This document shows positions 1-37,100 of a DNA stretch of 64,000 nucleotides, one piece after another. The stretch is from contig CM067356.1 of the NCBI GenBank assembly GCA_034190875.2, positions 51,137,263 to 51,201,262 of the forward strand. The letters are read 5' to 3'. The first letter of the stretch is position 1, and the number at the start of each line of letters is the position of its first letter. The notes under the pieces are model-generated. The model saw nothing but the letters and a program-made list of their open reading frames with translations. It was not told where the DNA came from and did not search any database. The stretch is from Urechis unicinctus (Eukaryota; Annelida; Polychaeta; Xenopneusta; Urechidae). A program made the position numbers and the translations under genes.

Positions 1-314
1 TGCAGTGTGCAATTAACGATAAGCCCACCAACAGTTGTGTGACTTACGTAACGCGCGTGGCATGTTTTCTTTAAGTGTTTCGTGCGAGTTGATTTCCTAG
101 CCGTCGGTAAGCAAACCTATATATGGGCAGTACACAATTTCTGAAGATGTTGATGTGGCGTTATGTTCACGGTTCTAAAACGCAAATTTGAAGAGAACAA
201 AAAAGCTCAGAGAGCACTGTATGAAAAAGAGAAGCGCTGCAGTAAATATGACCGTGTCATGTTCTGATTCAGTCAGTTCACCCTTTAAATTGGTTAATTA
301 GTAAATTATTTGGT

Positions 315-360
315 ATTTCCATGATGAAGGCTTGATCAGTTCTGATGCTGACACAGATCT
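315..360 (+). ncRNA. degraded box C/D snoRNA relic (family B)
   Basis: A shortened copy of the family B snoRNA. It keeps the C box (ATGATGA) and the following TTGATCAGTTCTG, then jumps to GATGCTGACA and AGATCT. The D-proximal guide (CTTACCTACA) and the D box are lost, so it should be inactive. Its left flank matches the spacer before the intact copies at 3516 and 6050, so it comes from the same duplicated block. Confidence 0.6.
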
Positions 361-858
361 TTGGTGATATACTGAATTGCGCACGCCTATTATACAATAA
401 AGTTGTGGCAGATTTATGTAAAATTGAAGCTTATTGATGGTTGTTATCTCTTATCTTGCCAAGCTGTCATCAAGCCATTGCGTTTTACAACTTGGATACT
501 GTAACAAACCAATTAAATCATAATGGATCAAATGTAACAAACCAATTAAATCATAATGGATCATTGTGTTGTGCGTGTCAATATATAGCTGCATCTTGAA
601 TGTAGGGTTGCGATAGCTGTACGTGCTTCTTGAATTTTCATTGGATTGAGTATTTATATATAAGGATGCAGCACGTGTGGGGAGACAAAGCTGATGACGT
701 TTCGACTTTAAAAAGTATGATCTAACAGTTGGTAATAAAGAAGATTGTGGTACTCAACAAACGAAGCCTGTGTCAGATACATTAAAATTTTCATCCTGTG
801 TAGCTGTCTTGACGTAACCTTTATTGTTAGATGAATAATATAGCGTGTTGTTATATTT

Positions 859-929
859 GCTGTGATGATACTGTGACGGGCGGACTGACTTCTCTGTTGG
901 AGGTCGTGGTGAAGGTCACATTTCTGAGC
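859..929 (+). ncRNA. SNORD43: box C/D snoRNA, SNORD43-like (family A copy 1)
   Basis: Seen: C box GTGATGA, guide TGACGGGCGG directly before a D' box (CTGA), C'-like GTGGTGA, D box CTGA and a short GCT/AGC terminal stem. The guide pairs with the conserved 18S rRNA 3' stretch CCGCCCGTCGC over about 11 bp (one G-U). By the D'+5 rule it would direct 2'-O-methylation of a C there. From memory, human SNORD43 carries the same GACGGGCGGA element and targets the equivalent C, but its human host is RPL3. This copy lies upstream of RANBP1 exon 2 on the sense strand. Confidence 0.88.
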
Positions 930-1106
930 CTTGTGGTGTAACGACATTCGTCTCTGTATAAATCGTACTTGACTAACTGTAGGCATTTGTTAAATTGAAC
1001 CCTAATGCCCACCACAGTTGGTGCTTCAACAATAAAACACTCATCATCACTATCTATTACCACCTTGATGTAACTTCATTGATGAAAACAGCCTGTAGTT
1101 TTTTTT

Positions 1107-1177
1107 GCTGTGATGATACTGTGACGGGCGGACTGACTTCTCTATTGGAGGTCGTGGTGAAGGTCACAGCTCTGAGC
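1107..1177 (+). ncRNA. SNORD43: box C/D snoRNA, SNORD43-like (family A copy 2)
   Basis: Near-identical to the copy at 859-929, with the same C, D' and D boxes and the same 18S guide. It differs at a few bases around C' and before D (GTCACAGCT against GTCACATTT). The two copies are 248 bp apart start to start, which points to local tandem duplication. It ends about 600 nt before the exon 2 acceptor. Confidence 0.88.
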
Positions 1178-1784
1178 CTCATGACACAAGTTGGAGATAA
1201 TAAATATTTCTGAACCTTAGAATTCTATATAATCGTTTTGAAGAGCCTGATGTTAGCAATATTTTTGCCATACAATTTGACGAGTAATGAAGCTAACTTT
1301 TCCATATAGATCTTTGAGTTGGTTGTGGGTTATGACTCATGTCAGTAGGCAGTGGGATCCAGATGGTTGACTGGAGGTGGTCCTTGCGAAGGCTATATCT
1401 GCCACACACCACTTAGGCCCTGATTTGTCCAGGCAAAAGGTCTGGTCAAGTCAATTGGCTGGATGGTGGTGACAAGTGCTTTTCTCATTTTTCACCTTCT
1501 TGTTTAAGTTCAGCATCAATTTCCCTTTCTTTCCCTCCAGTTGTCCTAGACAGCCACTGCTCAATTGGGGCAACTTCATCATAACTATGTAGGCTTCATC
1601 CTTCACATTGGTGTTGGTGTATCGTTTAACTGTATTCTTACTTTGAGAAACTTAGTTCTGGGTCATTTGATCAAAGCATGGTCTACCCACATTAGGGCCT
1701 GGCTTTACTGTTTGGGTTGAAGCTTATAAACTAGTTCTTTTGGACCAGCGTCACCACTTGCTCATGTGACTGTTTGTGTTACAG

Positions 1785-4700
1785 GAGGAAGTTGCCCACA
1801 GTCCAGACGTTCACTTTGAGCCCATAGTGAGTCTGCCTAAGGTGGATATCATTACGATGGAAGAAGATGAGCAGGAGATGCTGAAATTGTAACTAGGCTT
1901 TCTGAAAACTTTCATGTCATTATTCCTTAACGAGGAGTCATTCTTAGACAAATCATGCCTTCCAGCAATTCTCACTAATATTGTGCATTGAAGTGGTATC
2001 CAAATAGACCCCCATGATTAAGTATTTTGCTTGGTAGCCATTGAAATTTAAGGGGCCAGAGATTCTTTTACGAGCCAATGCTACCTTTCATTTCCAGTTA
2101 TTAACATGTTATACTGTCATCCGGCCAAAGTAGTTTACTTATTCATATATAAGTTAATCAGGATCAGCATTTAAAGGACCATTGTTATGTTTAGCTAGCT
2201 GCTTTGTCCCCCGTACATTCACATTGCGAGTAATCATAGTGTGGAGCTTTTGCGTCAAGTTATCATGTTGTGATTACTCGTGTTCAGAATCATTTGACCA
2301 ACGGCGATCATGACGTAAATTTGAGCAGTCAAAGTAGTGACTGAGTTGCTATGAAAGCATACGTTCGCCCAAGCACAAATCAATGATTCGCCATTGGCTC
2401 CTGTTCATTAAAAATAAGTTGCACCAATACAAATTTACTCGCATATGGCATCCATTTACTCGCAATTTTATGCCCTGCCATGCAATAGTGAGTGTGGTGA
2501 ATTCTTGTGACAGGCCAACTGATGTTACTCTCGCCAGGGAGCTATGTAGTCTCATTTTTGACTGCCTCTGTCAGATGCGCTGCAGCTGTTTACCTTCTCA
2601 TTGATTGATTACTGACCGAAAAATGCCTGTGTGTGTGCATGTAGAAGGGCTAAGTTGTTCCGGTATGATAGCGAGAGTGACCCCGCCGAGTGGAAGGAGC
2701 GAGGTGTCGGCGACATGAAGATTTTGCGACACAAACACGAGGGAACATGTAGGGTCCTCATGCGACGAGACAAGACTCACAAAGTCTGTGCCAACCACCA
2801 CAGTAAGTCGTCACTACCATGTACCCATTTCAGAACCTGCCTCTCCCATTACATACATGATCTAGCCCTCATATGACCTCATATGTCATGGGGGATCATT
2901 ACCCTTGCAGGCCACATTTTTCTTGTCCTTATCTTTGTTGTGTCTTAAACATGTCTTTCTTCTTTTGCACTACACATCCTCTCCCATCTGTGATGGTTAC
3001 TTTACAACCGGTCTTCGACTAGCTGTTTTCTCTGTGTATGATGGTGTATGCTGTGGCTGTGTCTAGTCCTACCTGAGATGACGCTGCGACCCAACTGTGG
3101 CAGCGACCGAGCCTGGGTGTGGAGTACACTGGCTGACTTCGCTGATGAAGAGCCAAAAACAGAAATGCTGGCAGTCCGCTTCAACAATGCAGACAGTAAG
3201 ACTAGCATTTCATCTCGATTTTTGGCATCAACTCGTGCTGTCATGCAAAAGACATGTAAAGATTTATCTGATCTCTATGATGAAGACAAGATCAGTTCTG
3301 CTACTGAAGCTGATGCTGACATCTCCTTACCTACACTGAGAGATCTTCACTTGTCGACCTCTTTCATCAGAATACCCCTATAAAACATGCCAGATAGTTA
3401 TCTCAAAGTGAGATGGGTTATGAGATGGTTGTTATGTGATAACATAGTCAGTAAATACGACCGTGTAATGTACTGATTCTGTCAGTTCACCCATTAAATT
3501 ATGTTAATTATTTGGGATCTCGATGATGAAAACTTGATCAGTTCTGCTTCTGAAGCTGATGCTGACATCACCTTACCTACACTGAGAGATCTTGAATTTT
3601 ATATGGGCACCTGGCAAATATCTTTCAACTTGGCTTGTTGTGTCTACCAACATATATACATACATACATATATATGTGTATGTATAATACAATGTCGTGT
3701 TGTTGATACAGATGCTGGAAAATTCAAAGAAAAGTTCGAAGAAGCACAGAAAATCATGGCAGATAAATTGAAGGACAGATTAGACTCATCGGGTGAGTTT
3801 GACATTTGACTAATCTCGTCAGTCTCATCAAAATGATACTGATTAGTTTTTCAATGCAGAAATAGATATTGTGAATTATCTCTATGATGAAGACTTGATC
3901 AGTTCTGCTACTGAAGCTGATGCTGACATCTTCTTACCTACACTGAGAGATCTATTTTTTATATGATTATGCCAAGCATATCTACCTGTATAAATATATC
4001 TGTATATTGGATATTCTGATAATGTGTGTTTGTTTGCTGGAATGTACGGTTCACTGGTTAGGGCTTGCATGCCCATGTTCGTTATATATATTTTCAGCAT
4101 TAATGTCCAGTAGAATAAGTATGTCACAGTCTTGTTAGAGGTCATGGAGATGGTTAGGAGGTCAGATGGGTTGCATTCAACGAATTCACTCAGTATTTTC
4201 TTCTAGGGTACCAATACAGAATAAATGAGCCATCCAATATTTTAAAGAGACAGGTGACGTTCTAAGTTATAATTGCCACGTGTTGTGTTATGGGCTTGGA
4301 TTAAGTAGGTTTGAATCTGTGTTCTGTCCCGCGTCATATTATCCATTGCCATCATACAATGCAACATTATTTGGTGTTGCTGTATCCATTGCCATCATAC
4401 AATGCAACATTATTTGGTGTTGCTGTATCCATTGCCATCATACAATGCAATTGCATCATACAATTTATTTGGTGTTGCTGTATCCATTGCCATCATACAA
4501 TGCAACATTATTTGGTGTTGCTGTATCCATTGCCATCATACAATGCAACATTATTTGGTGTTGCTGTATCCATTGCCATCATACAATGCAACATTATTTG
4601 GTGTTGCTGTATCCATTGCCATCATACAATGCAACATTATTTGGTGTTGCTGTATCCATTGCCATCATACAATGCAACATTATTTGGTGTTGTTGCCATC

Positions 4701-7312
4701 ATACAATGCAACATTATTTGGTGTTGTTGTATCCATTGCCATCATACAATGCAACATTATTTGGTGTTGTTGTATCCATTGCCATCATACAATGCAACAT
4801 TATTTGGTGTTGTTATCCATTGCCATCATACAATGCAACATTATTTGGTGTTGTTGTATCCATTGCCATCATACAATGCAACATTATTTGGTGTTGCTGT
4901 ATTATTTGGTGTTGTGTGTATCCATTGCCATCATACAATGCAACATTATTTGGTGTTGTTGTATCCATTGCCATCATACAATGCAACATTATTTGGTGTT
5001 GCTGTATCCATTGCCATCATACAATGCAACATTATTTGGTGTTGTTGTATCCATTGCCATCATACAATGCAACATTATTTGGTGTTGCTGTATCCATTGC
5101 CATCATACAATGCAACATTATTTGGTGTTGCTGTATCCTGCATTGTTAGATCTCGATGATGAAGACATGATCAGTTCTGCTACTGAAGCTGATGCTGACA
5201 TCTCCTTACCTACACTGAGAGATCAAGTTAATATTCTCAAGAGCTTATTTAGTGTATATGATGGTGAAGTTTGGCACGCTTTTGATCAACAATCATCTCT
5301 GATGGAGCTGGGTGGGAAGGAATTACTACTTAGTTTCCATCTGCAGTATTCAATGGTTTGTGTTGCACTGCAGTGTGTTAATGCTGTGAGATGATGACAC
5401 AGACCTCAGCACCATGTAGGGTAGAGCAAGCTACTATATGGTTGTGGTCTGTTGAGTGGCTATTGAAGATAGGTATATGATAACTCAGTTCCATTCCAAT
5501 CAACTTGAGGTATTATCCCCCTTGTTGAGTTTCTTATTAAATACCTAGGTATCATTTAATCATTGAATTCATCAATGATGTAAGAGTATTCGTAGGTAAT
5601 TTAGTAATTAAATGATCGCCAAATGGACTACTGGCTAAAACCTGGTTATGTGCAAATTAAAAAAAAACTACAATCTGAACTTTGGGCTTGTCAGGATTAA
5701 TTATTTGTCATCCCGAAACTTAAGTGGTCTGAGAGTAACAGTTTTACGTAATGAATATACAACTCAGATCAACGCTGATGGCGCCATTTTTGTTTACTCG
5801 AGGAATCTCTATGATGAAGACATGATCAGTTCTGCTACTGAAGCTGATGCTGACATCACCTTACCTACACTGAGAGATCTTCACTTGTCGACCTCTTTCA
5901 TCAGAATACCCCTATAAAACATGCCAGATAGTTATCTCAAAGTGACATGGGTTATGAGATGGTTGTTAAGTGATAATGTAGTCAGTAAATATGACCGTGT
6001 AATGTACTGATTCTGTCAGTTCACCCATTAAATTATGTAAATTATTTGGGATCTCAATGATGAAGACAAGATCAGTTCTGCTACTGAAGCTGATGCTGAC
6101 ATCTCCTTACCTACACTGAGAGATCTATGGACCATATAGATGTAGTTGCAGGGAATTTATTGGTATTATAGAAAAAAGTTGAATTTGAATTAGAAGGTCA
6201 GTGACACACACCTTTATGTAACAGCCCAAAGCCATAGTTGTTAATGCAACAAGGTCTAGTACCGCTGATCTTTCTTATGTCATTGTGAATCACAGCAATG
6301 TGGCTGAGCTTCAAGAACAATAGACCTCTTGTTTAATCAACAAGTGTATATCTGGTTGCTTGTTTGTTTCCATGACTAATACTACAACTAGATAATTAAT
6401 CCCATATGTCAACTTTGTTTCACAGTGTGACCCACATGTGTTGAATAAGTCACTACCAGCTTTTTACTGGTCAAATAAAGGATTGATTATTAGCTGCTGT
6501 GATGATACTGTGACGGGCGGACTGACTACTCTTTCAAAGGTCATGGTGAAGGTCACTGTTCTGAGCTCTAAGACAAGTTGAAACAGTAATCTGATCATTG
6601 TGGCCATTGCTGTGTCTGTGGACTATTTCAGAGCCGTAATGACTACATTCATTTGTTGAATTTGTTACATAAAATTTGATTTATCTGATCTCTATGATGA
6701 AGACTTGATCAGTTCTGCTACTGAAGCTGATGCTGACATCTCCTTACCTACACTGAGAGATCTATGAACCATATAGATGTAGTTGCAGGAAATTAATTGG
6801 TATAATAGACAAAAGTTGATAGAACCATTTGAAGTTACCGTCAATGTTTGTCCCCTTTGTTTATTATAACTGAGCCGGGATGGAATGTATTTAATTGTTG
6901 CTGCTGTGATGATACTGTGACGGGCGGACTGACTACTCTTTCAAAGGTCATGGTGAAGGTCACTGTTCTGAGCTCCACAACTGACATGCTGTCTTGGTTG
7001 TGGACAGTCATGTTAGAGCTATTCTCTTGGCAAGAGGGTTGCTGCTGCAGTTTCCCTCCTTTTTACTCATTGAGCCTGTCGCTGTTGTAGATATTGGCTG
7101 GATTAGTTGTTCATTGGTTGGTGTGTGCTTTTTCAGCAGCATCTGGAGATACAGAAGATACAGACGAGAAAACGGAAAGCAAAACCACAGATGAAGTCAG
7201 TGATAAACTAGGTGAACTCTCTGTGAAAGACAAAACTACTGACGAGTCCAAAGCAGAAGATTCCAAACAGTCAAGTCAACCTCCTGATGACAAAGACCAA
7301 GCCGGGCGATAG
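1785..7312 (+). CDS. RANBP1: RANBP1, Ran-specific GTPase-activating co-factor (5' partial)
   Basis: Exons: 1785-1888, 2645-2802, 3067-3195, 3712-3792, 7137-7312; phases agree at every junction and the stop is TAG at 7310-7312. The protein holds [50 protein letters not shown] and GSDRAWVW, the core of the Ran-binding (RanBD1) domain, then an acidic/lysine-rich tail with [14 protein letters not shown], like the end of vertebrate RANBP1. In this family the domain grips Ran-GTP, stimulates RanGAP and releases Ran from karyopherins in the cytoplasm. About 215 residues are visible. Exon 1 with the initiator methionine is missing. The introns are a snoRNA host, with two family A copies upstream of exon 2, two family B copies in the intron before 3712, and seven units in the 3.3-kb last intron. 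Confidence 0.93.
3270..3345 (+). ncRNA. box C/D snoRNA, family B copy 1
   Basis: Terminal stem GATCTCT/AGAGATC, C box ATGATGA, D' CTGA, C' CTGATG and D box CTGA are all visible in 76 nt. The guide before box D (CCTTACCTACA) is complementary to TGTAGGTAAGG, part of a conserved 28S rRNA core stretch as I recall it (TGTAGGTAAGGGAAG). The D+5 rule selects the G of TGTAG. I do not know the vertebrate name of this guide. It sits in the RANBP1 intron 3196-3711 and forms the left end of a 322-bp block repeated at 5804-6125. Confidence 0.85.
3516..3591 (+). ncRNA. box C/D snoRNA, family B copy 2
   Basis: Same boxes and stem as copy 1. It differs by GATGATGAAAAC after the stem, a CTTCTGA around D', and ACC in place of TCC before the invariant CTTACCTACA guide. 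It ends about 120 nt before the acceptor at 3710-3711, a spacing compatible with efficient intronic release. It shares its intron with copy 1. Confidence 0.85.
3878..3951 (+). ncRNA. box C/D snoRNA, family B copy 3
   Basis: C box ATGATGA, D', C' and D boxes are intact, with an ATCTCT/AGAGAT stem. The guide reads TTCTTACCTACA, keeping the 10-nt core. It lies about 85 nt after the start of the long last intron of RANBP1. Confidence 0.83.
4340..5139 (+). repeat. 43-bp minisatellite, about 19 copies
   Basis: The unit reads TATCCATTGCCATCATACAA followed by TGCAACATTATTTGGTGTTGCTG. Most copies are near-identical, with GCTG/GTTG variation and a few shortened or merged units. Because 43 is not a multiple of 3 and the unit has no stop on this strand, all three plus-strand frames stay open and give long but meaningless ORFs. 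The array lies in the last RANBP1 intron and ends about 10 bp before a family B snoRNA. Confidence 0.95.
5149..5224 (+). ncRNA. box C/D snoRNA, family B copy 4
   Basis: All boxes are intact, with stem GATCTC/GAGATC, D' CTGA, C' CTGATG and guide TCCTTACCTACA before box D. It directly follows the 43-bp minisatellite, so the array edge coincides with the snoRNA's 5' flank. Confidence 0.85.
5804..5879 (+). ncRNA. box C/D snoRNA, family B copy 5
   Basis: Intact boxes with guide ACCTTACCTACA. The 5' stem strand is AATCTCT, one base short of perfect pairing. It forms the left end of the block 5804-6125 that repeats 3270-3591. Confidence 0.85.
6050..6125 (+). ncRNA. box C/D snoRNA, family B copy 6
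   Basis: Intact boxes and guide TCCTTACCTACA, with stem GATCTC/GAGATC. Its 3' flank (TATGGACCATATAGATGTAG) recurs after copy 7, so a second duplication links copies 6 and 7 to the SNORD43-like copies that follow each of them. Confidence 0.85.
6496..6566 (+). ncRNA. SNORD43: box C/D snoRNA, SNORD43-like (family A copy 3)
   Basis: C box GTGATGA, guide TGACGGGCGG, D' CTGA, C' ATGGTGA and D CTGA. The middle segment (ACTCTTTCAAAGGTCATGG) differs from the upstream pair but matches copy 4. The segment before D reads GTCACTGTT, close to GTCACGTT that I recall in human SNORD43. Confidence 0.88.
6687..6762 (+). ncRNA. box C/D snoRNA, family B copy 7
   Basis: Intact boxes, a perfect GATCTCT/AGAGATC stem and guide TCCTTACCTACA. 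It lies between the third and fourth SNORD43-like copies in the last intron of RANBP1. Confidence 0.85.
6903..6973 (+). ncRNA. SNORD43: box C/D snoRNA, SNORD43-like (family A copy 4)
   Basis: Almost identical to copy 3 and carries the same 18S guide. It ends about 160 nt before the last RANBP1 acceptor (7135-7136), so it is the snoRNA closest to the 3' splice site in this intron. Confidence 0.88.
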
Positions 7313-34100: not shown

Positions 34101-37100
34101 GCAAGTGGTTGTAAAACATTTAACTAGGTGAGCTATACATAACATGGACCACAGAAGGTTGGGTAAGCCCTGGGAGTGGCGATTGCAGAATAGAGTTAAC
34201 CATTCTGCAATTCTTATACTGACAGGGTTATGGTAAGAGGAATTTACAGGCAAGCATTTCACCACAAATAATAAACACGTGGTCATTTTTTGTCATAACC
34301 TCTTGTACACATCAGCAATGCTATACAGACACATGTTAATCACAATGAGACAGAACCATTTTTCTGAAACTTTGACACATAGTATAATTATCACAACAGC
34401 AAATTATTTTTTCCTGGCCTTGAAAAGAGTAAATCAACTCACTCTCAGCTTCAGACAGGTCGGTCCATTTGACTCCACCACTGAAAGAGCACAGAACACA
34501 ACATCTCATATGAACACATCACCTGCAACAACAGCTGGGCAACCTAAATCATGTCCTTAAAAAACCATTCAAATCACATAAATATTGTAGATAGATGGTG
34601 TATTTTCAGACTGGTTTATTACAATAGGAATGCCAGATGCAGTGTATACATGGGACAGCTGCATTAGGCTTTTATCTGTTTGAAGTCAATTCATATACCA
34701 ACCTGATCAAGACTGTGGCTGTTTCTGGCACACGGTACACCTGCAAACACATTGCACATCTCAACATATATGGGCAGCTGGCTAGCTTGATACCAGTCTA
34801 ATGCGTGGAGAAAACTAATAACGGTAATAATGGGAAGCCACCAATCGTAGAACAAAGACTCTTAACATAACTGATGGCCAAGAGAACACAATAAAGACCC
34901 TAATTTATGGCAGCAAAGCCAACAACACGTATACAATGAACTGAAGAGGACCTAAACCTAGTGAAGTGACCACTAACTAGTTATGCATATATACACAACA
35001 TTTCTGGGGTAAGGTAAGGAAGCTACCTTGACCTCATATAAACTGGGACCTAACCGCAAACAGGAAGCAGGGGTCACTTACTAAGTTAAGGACAGGCCTC
35101 TCAAACAAGCACTCAAAGTCAATTCAATGAACGTGTTTGGTTATATACATATTATACATGTCACTTAGAATCACCATCTAACACTGATAACTAACACAGG
35201 ATAAAAGTCTGTTATCTACACTGGCTTCCGTGCTTAATACAACACTGTATAACTGACAGAACAACTTGGGGGCAGGAAATGGATTACTGATAAGCCATGG
35301 TTCTTTCGACAGAATTTAACATTTGGTGTTATGACACACGTGGTAACTACTTACGAGGAAGCAGGCCAATGACTTACAACTGAAAACACAGCGTGATGAG
35401 CAAGAATTTAGCTACCACGAAAAATTCTGACAGTTTCCTGGTATTTGAGAAACAACTGATGTTAAGAACTGTTCAGAATTGTCTGGTTAAGATCAACAAG
35501 AGAGTTGGGGAAATCTTAGATATTCTGTAATACATCAGGTCAGATCATTCATTATTTTTATCAACATTACATATTCACCAGGATATTTGAATTGAAAATT
35601 GATATCTGTTTTGGTTTTGGGTTGCATGCTGGCTACTATTGCTGTTCACGATGAACAACTACTAATGATACCATATATTTATGTGTAAAACTCGGCAGGA
35701 AGTTGTTTACCTTCCATCCAAGATTCTCAAAGAATGTGCAAAGTCGAGATTGGCCCGTAGTCTTCCCACCACATGGTCCTGTTAAAACACAAACAAAATG
35801 CAAGCAGTACTGCAACACTTGAACAACATCACAACTGATACAGGACGAGTTCTATCCATGATTAGGCTATCCACCTGGTGATGAAACTGGAGGCCAGTAG
35901 GCCTAGAAGCCTTCAAATCATGGCACATTCGCCTAGCAATTGAAGCATATGCTAAGATGTGTTGGTAAACATTTTGCAAAATTCCACATGCTATATTGAC
36001 AAAATATGCCACCTAAATGTGTCAGATGTTTCTTATTTGATGGAGTCACTTTGAGAATGATGTCGAATCACAGATGACTTCTCTAATCTAAGATCCCTAC
36101 CAATTTTATTTTGGCTTGATGGAAATTACAAGAGGTTTTCTGATTGCTTAAAAACAGCAGTTCAAATTCCCTGTTGGGTTTACTTCGAACAGGAGATTTT
36201 TCTTTAACAATCTAGTCATGTAAGGCTGATTTTGTTAACTTCAAGGCCATCAATATAAGAGGGGTCTATGTATAATTTAGGGTAGCTAGCATTAGCCATA
36301 AATCCCACCCCCCCACATTGGGTTTACACAGTACAAAATATTCAAAAGTCAAGGTCTTGCAAGGAGCCATATAAGAGAGATCCATGTATGATTTCAGGAT
36401 GCTTGCTGGATTTGTTACAAAATGTGCCATCAAATTTTACAAACAGATGGAAGGAGGGACCTAGGCTGGAGCAATGGTATATGATAAGCTCTGCTGAACA
36501 GCTGAAACATAAAGCAAGAAGTCAAATATTTAATGATTAAGACTTGGACAAAGCAGGGTGAATCATGGAATAAAAAAAAAAAGTAAGGTAACAATAGTGT
36601 CCAATGGCACACCAATCCTTATGTGTTATATGTTGAATAGATAAGATTGAACTTATTAAGCAGCCGCCTTCTAGAATAAATGGAAAAAGAGGAAACACCA
36701 TTGACTGGAGATGAATACAAACAATTATCCACCAGTCCATTGACTAGACCAGGCCTTTCCAGCCTCTCGTCTAGGTGAAAGTGTCATGCTGCAGGTATGA
36801 CCCTTGCAATGACCTCTCCACTTAACTACCAGGATCCCATTGTCCACCTACATGAGTCGCAACCCTCGGCCAACAGGGCATAGGTGTTAGGGAAGGTGTT
36901 AGCCAGAGACCCGTCGACTGGACAGGTGATCTTTGGATTGGGCGGGCTGAAATGTACTCGAAAGACCTTCAACCTGTCTGTCCGTGCCTCCAAGGCCTGA
37001 TGCAAAAAAATAGCCTAGTCCATGTAAACAGCTCATTCAAAGACAAAGTGCGACGCAGCGTCAATGATCAAGCTAAATACTGCTCTGTAGTATAAAGTTT

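Follow-up and report, generated by a model that had tools for sequence, protein, structure and literature searches.

A 64,000-nucleotide stretch of the genome of the annelid Urechis unicinctus (contig CM067356.1, positions 51,137,263 to 51,201,262; hereafter the window) carries seven near-identical units which very probably are genes for box C/D small nucleolar RNAs (snoRNAs) of the U38/snR61 type, lying in two introns of a RANBP1-type gene, from which they would be spliced out to guide methylation of large-subunit ribosomal RNA (LSU rRNA). A previous interpretation made from the letters alone (the sequence-only reading) had proposed a seven-copy box C/D family in RANBP1 introns with an invariant 28S guide. 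The family, the host gene and the fit of that guide to 28S are borne out here; the reading missed the guide before the D' box, an eighth copy and a second C/D-like family. The guide it singled out, before box D, is the less certain of the two, and the D' guide is the stronger identification of the family. The units (u1 to u7) and the parts of the first of them are:

3270..3345, + strand, u1, intact U38-like C/D unit in intron 3196-3711
3516..3591, + strand, u2, intact, in intron 3196-3711; a T ahead of the D' box adds one base of D' guide pairing
3877..3952, + strand, u3, intact, in intron 3793-7136
5149..5224, + strand, u4, intact, in intron 3793-7136
5804..5879, + strand, u5, intact, in intron 3793-7136
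6050..6125, + strand, u6, intact, in intron 3793-7136
6687..6762, + strand, u7, intact, in intron 3793-7136
3277..3283, + strand, C box ATGATGA of u1 (unit columns 8-14, the same columns in all seven)
3293..3302, + strand, D' guide CAGTTCTGCT of u1 (columns 24-33), the U38/snR61 guide, complementary to LSU AGCAGAACTG
3304..3307, + strand, D' box CTGA of u1 (columns 35-38)
3310..3316, + strand, C' box CTGATGC of u1, imperfect (columns 41-47)
3325..3335, + strand, D guide CCTTACCTACA of u1 (columns 56-66; TCTTACCTACA in u3), complementary to LSU TGTAGGTAAGG
3336..3339, + strand, D box CTGA of u1 (columns 67-70)

Each unit is 76 nt long; 68 of the 76 columns are invariant, and any two units differ by 1 to 6 bases. 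Six of them start where the sequence-only reading had put them, and the third starts one base earlier (3877, not 3878). With up to two mismatches allowed, CTTACCTACACTGA occurs seven times in the window, each time exactly, as against a mean of 0.54 in dinucleotide shuffles, none of which (0/100) reached seven. A covariance model built from the seven units, the check proposed for them, was run over the whole window with filters off and gave 24 matches up to an expect value (E) of 10: the seven units at 107.2-112.5 bits (by construction), the decayed copy at 314-371 as the only further significant match (38.7 bits, E 9.7e-9), and 16 others at E 2.5 or worse.

The anatomy of the units is that of a box C/D snoRNA, with ATGATGA (C) and CTGA (D) present in 7/7 and a terminal stem (columns 1-6 and 71-76) whose five inner pairs, ATCTC/GAGAT, are invariant. 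The GATCTCT/AGAGATC stem first described holds in this inner part, but its outer G-C is present in 5/7 units and its seventh base is T, G or A. The internal motifs are equally regular, CTGA at D' and CTGATGC at C' in all seven, though the latter is imperfect against the C' consensus.

The family takes its name from the guide adjoining the D' box, which is letter for letter that of U38 in the Rfam family RF00476, in human RNU38B and in Plasmodium PFS6. The units carry CAGUUCUGCU[A/U] directly before D', as expected of the U38/snR61 guide for LSU Am1871/Am1133, and 7/7 of them pair over 10 nt (guide positions 2-11) with the LSU of L004. This is one of five contigs filed under bacterial metagenome-assembled genomes (L001 to L005) that hold a eukaryotic 28S stretch; the four scanned (L001, L002, L004 and L005) hold LSU rRNA by Rfam, and two hold small-subunit (SSU) and 5.8S rRNA as well. 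The record of L001 names a tubeworm endosymbiont, and the 28S there may be the host's. In box C/D guides the methylated base faces the fifth guide base upstream of the D-type box, and the D' guide is accordingly predicted to act on the bracketed A in GTAAGC[A]GAACTGG, which corresponds to Am1871 in human, Am1133 in yeast and Am1143 in Arabidopsis. An assignment of this guide to SNORD51/Am1524 was considered and is ruled out by the Rfam, RNU38B and PFS6 sequences, which are those of U38/snR61.

That human and Plasmodium U38 have the same D' guide argues against the units being a functionless mobile or satellite-like repeat that resembles a snoRNA by accident, an explanation we regard as highly improbable. 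The copies are indeed near-identical and most pairs have unrelated flanks, but no copy was found outside 314-6762 within the window, and the mosaic of shared and unshared flanks is compatible with recombination between units; reading of the flanks by eye revealed neither poly(A) tails nor target-site duplications.

The guide before box D is the one that the sequence-only reading had matched to a conserved 28S stretch, and that stretch is real: CCTTACCTACA is contained in the 28S primer rD7.b1, and its complement lies inside the Rfam LSU match in all four contigs scanned. Pairing with the L004 LSU extends over 10 nt in 7/7 units, and an 11th pair is Watson-Crick in 6/7 and G-U in u3, the C/T variation in column 56 still pairing with G; against this LSU every unit thus has an rRNA antisense of 10 nt or more beside a D or D' box. 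The 11 nt are complementary to L004 and L005 both and adjoin box D, where a guide must sit, and none of 636 background CTGA motifs matches an 11-mer common to the two loci, a shared set that contains the stretch by construction. By the fifth-base rule this guide would direct methylation to the first G of TGTA[G]GTAAGG.

Of all the steps in the explanation, functional use of this guide is held with the least confidence, at about even odds. A little short of even we place the alternative that only the D' guide works and that CCTTACCTACA is a chance complement, identical among the copies since they are young and homogenised. Guide columns taken alone (both guides) are not less variable than expected (1 variable column in 20, P 0.32); the D region of the RF00476 consensus differs, and human RNU38B has another stretch before its D box. 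Beside other CTGA motifs, complements of 10 nt arise by chance in 8/636 cases with the L004 rRNA and 2/636 with L005, and complements of 11 nt in 3/636 and 1/636, figures to be set against the double complementarity and the placing just described. A full-text literature search found no Gm listed at the D-guide target, which is no proof that the site is unreported; the tables in PMC11542601 and PMC8817022, both incomplete as lists of the known sites, have none there, and a literature text search for the D guide with its box returned no match to that string.

Several observations weigh against reading the units as working U38-type genes with two guides. RF00476 scores all seven at 37.4-41.8 bits, below its gathering cut-off of 45, which is a curation threshold and not a biological trait, and at gathering scores Rfam has no match in the whole window; we therefore name the units U38-like by their guide and not as members of the Rfam family. 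Of the D' target, L004 alone has an exact copy; L002 departs from it by one change, and none within one change was found in the LSU of L005. Because the five contigs had been chosen for containing the D-target stretch, finding it in every one of them is not independent evidence, and 10-11 nt matches arising by chance at about 0.5-1.3% of CTGA motifs have to be reckoned with if the D guide is judged by itself. Folding of the units is only mildly better than that of shuffles (z -1.4 for u1, -1.6 for u7) and adds no support, and the terminal stem has no compensatory change, its outer pair being broken in 2/7 units. Finally, the segments running from u1 to u2 and from u5 to u6, spacers included, are copies of a single block (322 nt, identity 95.7%), in which the spacer differs at 6/170 positions, u1 and u5 at 3/76 and u2 and u6 at 6/76; the units of this recent block are not more conserved than the spacer and give no sign of constraint.

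This last result bears on the claim that drift between unchanged boxes and guides is the pattern expected under selection. Across the seven copies, which are not independent of each other, none of the eight variable columns falls in the stem and boxes (32 columns, P 0.0094) and one falls in stem, boxes and guides together (52 columns, P 0.001). Stem and boxes are thus spared, the guides by themselves are not demonstrably so, and in view of this and of the recent block the drift pattern was overstated as evidence of selection. Older copies retain 92-99% unit identity despite unrelated flanks, which is compatible with selection or gene conversion alike.

The flanks record how the copies arose. 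Downstream of the unit u1 and u5 share their flank, upstream they do not (60-nt identities 1.00 and 0.22); u2 and u6 share the upstream flank and not the downstream one (0.97 and 0.23), and u6 and u7 the downstream one and not the upstream one (0.87 and 0.40). Breakpoints at or inside units fit recombination between units, a route that PMC8178906 proposes for C/D copies sharing a host gene. Upstream of the seven lies one more copy:

314..371, + strand, eighth copy, decayed; it retains the C box and the beginning of the D' guide and has lost the D' box region, D guide and D box

Its upstream flank is related to the spacers of u1-u2 and u5-u6 (82-83% over 112 nt, part of the unit included). Between u3 and u4 the intron is filled, from about 4330 to 5140, by a minisatellite of some 43 bp (TGTATCCATTGCCATCATACAATGCAACATTATTTGGTGTTGC). 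An inverted pair at 1318-1462 and 36732-36874, about 69% alike over 147 aligned columns, is perhaps a dispersed repeat.

Judged by the splice signals, the intron at 3196-3711 holds two of the units and the one at 3793-7136 the other five, between the following exons:

3067..3195, + strand, RANBP1 exon upstream of the intron holding u1 and u2
3712..3792, + strand, RANBP1 exon between the two unit-bearing introns
7137..7312, + strand, last coding exon, with acidic tail and stop; sequence read directly

The joined exon translation, searched with exon 7137..7312 left out, matches chains of the Ran-specific GTPase-activating protein (RANBP1) nearly full length (1k5d_B, E 1.5e-60), which upholds the host first proposed; multi-domain chains of RanBP2/Nup358 score higher, through four domains each. 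Rfam matches to miRNA families in 3638-3713 are weak and far below cut-off, in AT-rich repeat DNA.

If the units are U38-type genes, splicing of the host transcript would release the introns, C/D proteins would bind and protect the units to give mature RNAs, and these would direct fibrillarin to 2'-O-methylate the LSU base facing the fifth guide base, which for the D' guide is the A and for the D guide the G named above; expression, processing and methylation are here deduced from the DNA. The copies would have multiplied through unit-unit recombination within the gene, the upstream one decaying, and several units in one intron might yield long noncoding RNAs capped by snoRNAs (sno-lncRNAs). 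That some of the seven copies are unexpressed, only outer units or sno-lncRNAs surviving trimming, seems to us unlikely. Animals generally have one snoRNA per intron, and sno-lncRNAs come from introns with two (PMC11028025), while single introns here hold two units in one case and, in the other, five units plus v3 and v4 of the family described next; the boxes are nevertheless intact in all seven, and the single-intron clusters reported for plants and Plasmodium (PMC2656528) make separate release possible.

The second C/D-like family has four members:

858..929, + strand, v1, with D' guide GACGGGCGG for 18S, U43 type
1106..1177, + strand, v2
6495..6566, + strand, v3, in the intron holding u3-u7
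6902..6973, + strand, v4, in the same 3.3-kb intron

Each is 72 nt long, and GTGATGA, GACGGGCGGACTGA and CTGAGC are common to all four. The stretch before D', GACGGGCGG, is invariant in 4/4 and, checked on v1, complementary over 9 nt to the SSU of L004 and L005; it is the guide expected of U43/snR70, for the 18S C in CCG[C]CCGTC. The same fifth-base rule puts the predicted target at a C that corresponds to Cm1703 in human and Cm1402 in E. coli, which is the site of U43/snR70. No copy has a 9-nt complement ahead of its D box. Scores with the Rfam snoU43 model are 14.6-16.7 bits, short of its cut-off of 45 and without significance (E 4-9), and v3 has no snoU43 entry in the larger-region Rfam scan (E up to 10). 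The U43/snR70 site has a row in a table of PMC11542601.

In a collection of viral contigs neither a relative of the whole unit nor the 28S stretch was found (0 loci each); two matches to the U38-like pattern there (L006, L007) look like chance, lacking the context of D guide and D box and any Rfam match at gathering scores.

Among known systems the closest are U38/SNORD38 of human and chicken, snR61, AtU38 and PFS6, grouped with RF00476, which have the same D' guide and C/D architecture and an expected target at 28S Am1871/Am1133. Vertebrate U38 is likewise intronic, but the chicken host is RPS8, with copies in introns 4 and 5 (PMC2653536), as against RANBP1 here; chicken RANBP1 is recorded in the same paper as host of an H/ACA RNA. 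The present locus also differs in having seven copies in two introns and a second guide before box D, one that neither the RF00476 consensus nor the RNU38B fragment has. The 28S neighbourhood of that guide is the one in which U34/snR62 guides methylation, by an antisense that presumably covers the same ACCTACA stretch. U34 would set position 5 on the U of AATGTAGG, whereas here the base opposite position 5 is the G in TGTA[G]G; Um2837 we take to be the U facing guide position 1, four bases 5' of the predicted G. The register being shifted, the predicted site differs from that of U34, and the D guide is not a U34 copy. U34/SNORD34 and snR62 are given as guides of 28S Um2837/Um1888 in PMC8817022 and PMC11542601. 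Neurospora CD38, a U38/snR61 homologue, is also predicted to have a second rRNA target, though this is 26S Am2858, again reached through D', and not the TGTAGG site (PMC2780460). Sno-lncRNAs likewise come from introns with several C/D units, namely two (PMC11028025), compared here with a single intron that holds five candidate units of the U38-like kind and two of the U43-like.

We offer tentatively, and with some doubt, a fuller picture in which this lineage has a two-site U38, directed to the Am1871-type position and to a 28S Gm at TGTA[G]GTAAGG beside the U34/snR62 site, its genes amplified together with U43-type ones inside RANBP1 and single introns releasing at least five guides, or else long RNAs with a guide capping either end. 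The array would then indicate that an ancient guide RNA could gain a second target and multiply within one host gene, with the decayed copy and the recombinant flanks as a record of the process, and the crowded introns would bear on how snoRNA processing of the animal type handles introns with several guides in them. Should the extra G be unmethylated, this is an ordinary snoRNA cluster. Set beside these systems the locus is of a known kind, and what is modestly new is that U38-like units stand in an array of seven and may carry a second guide.
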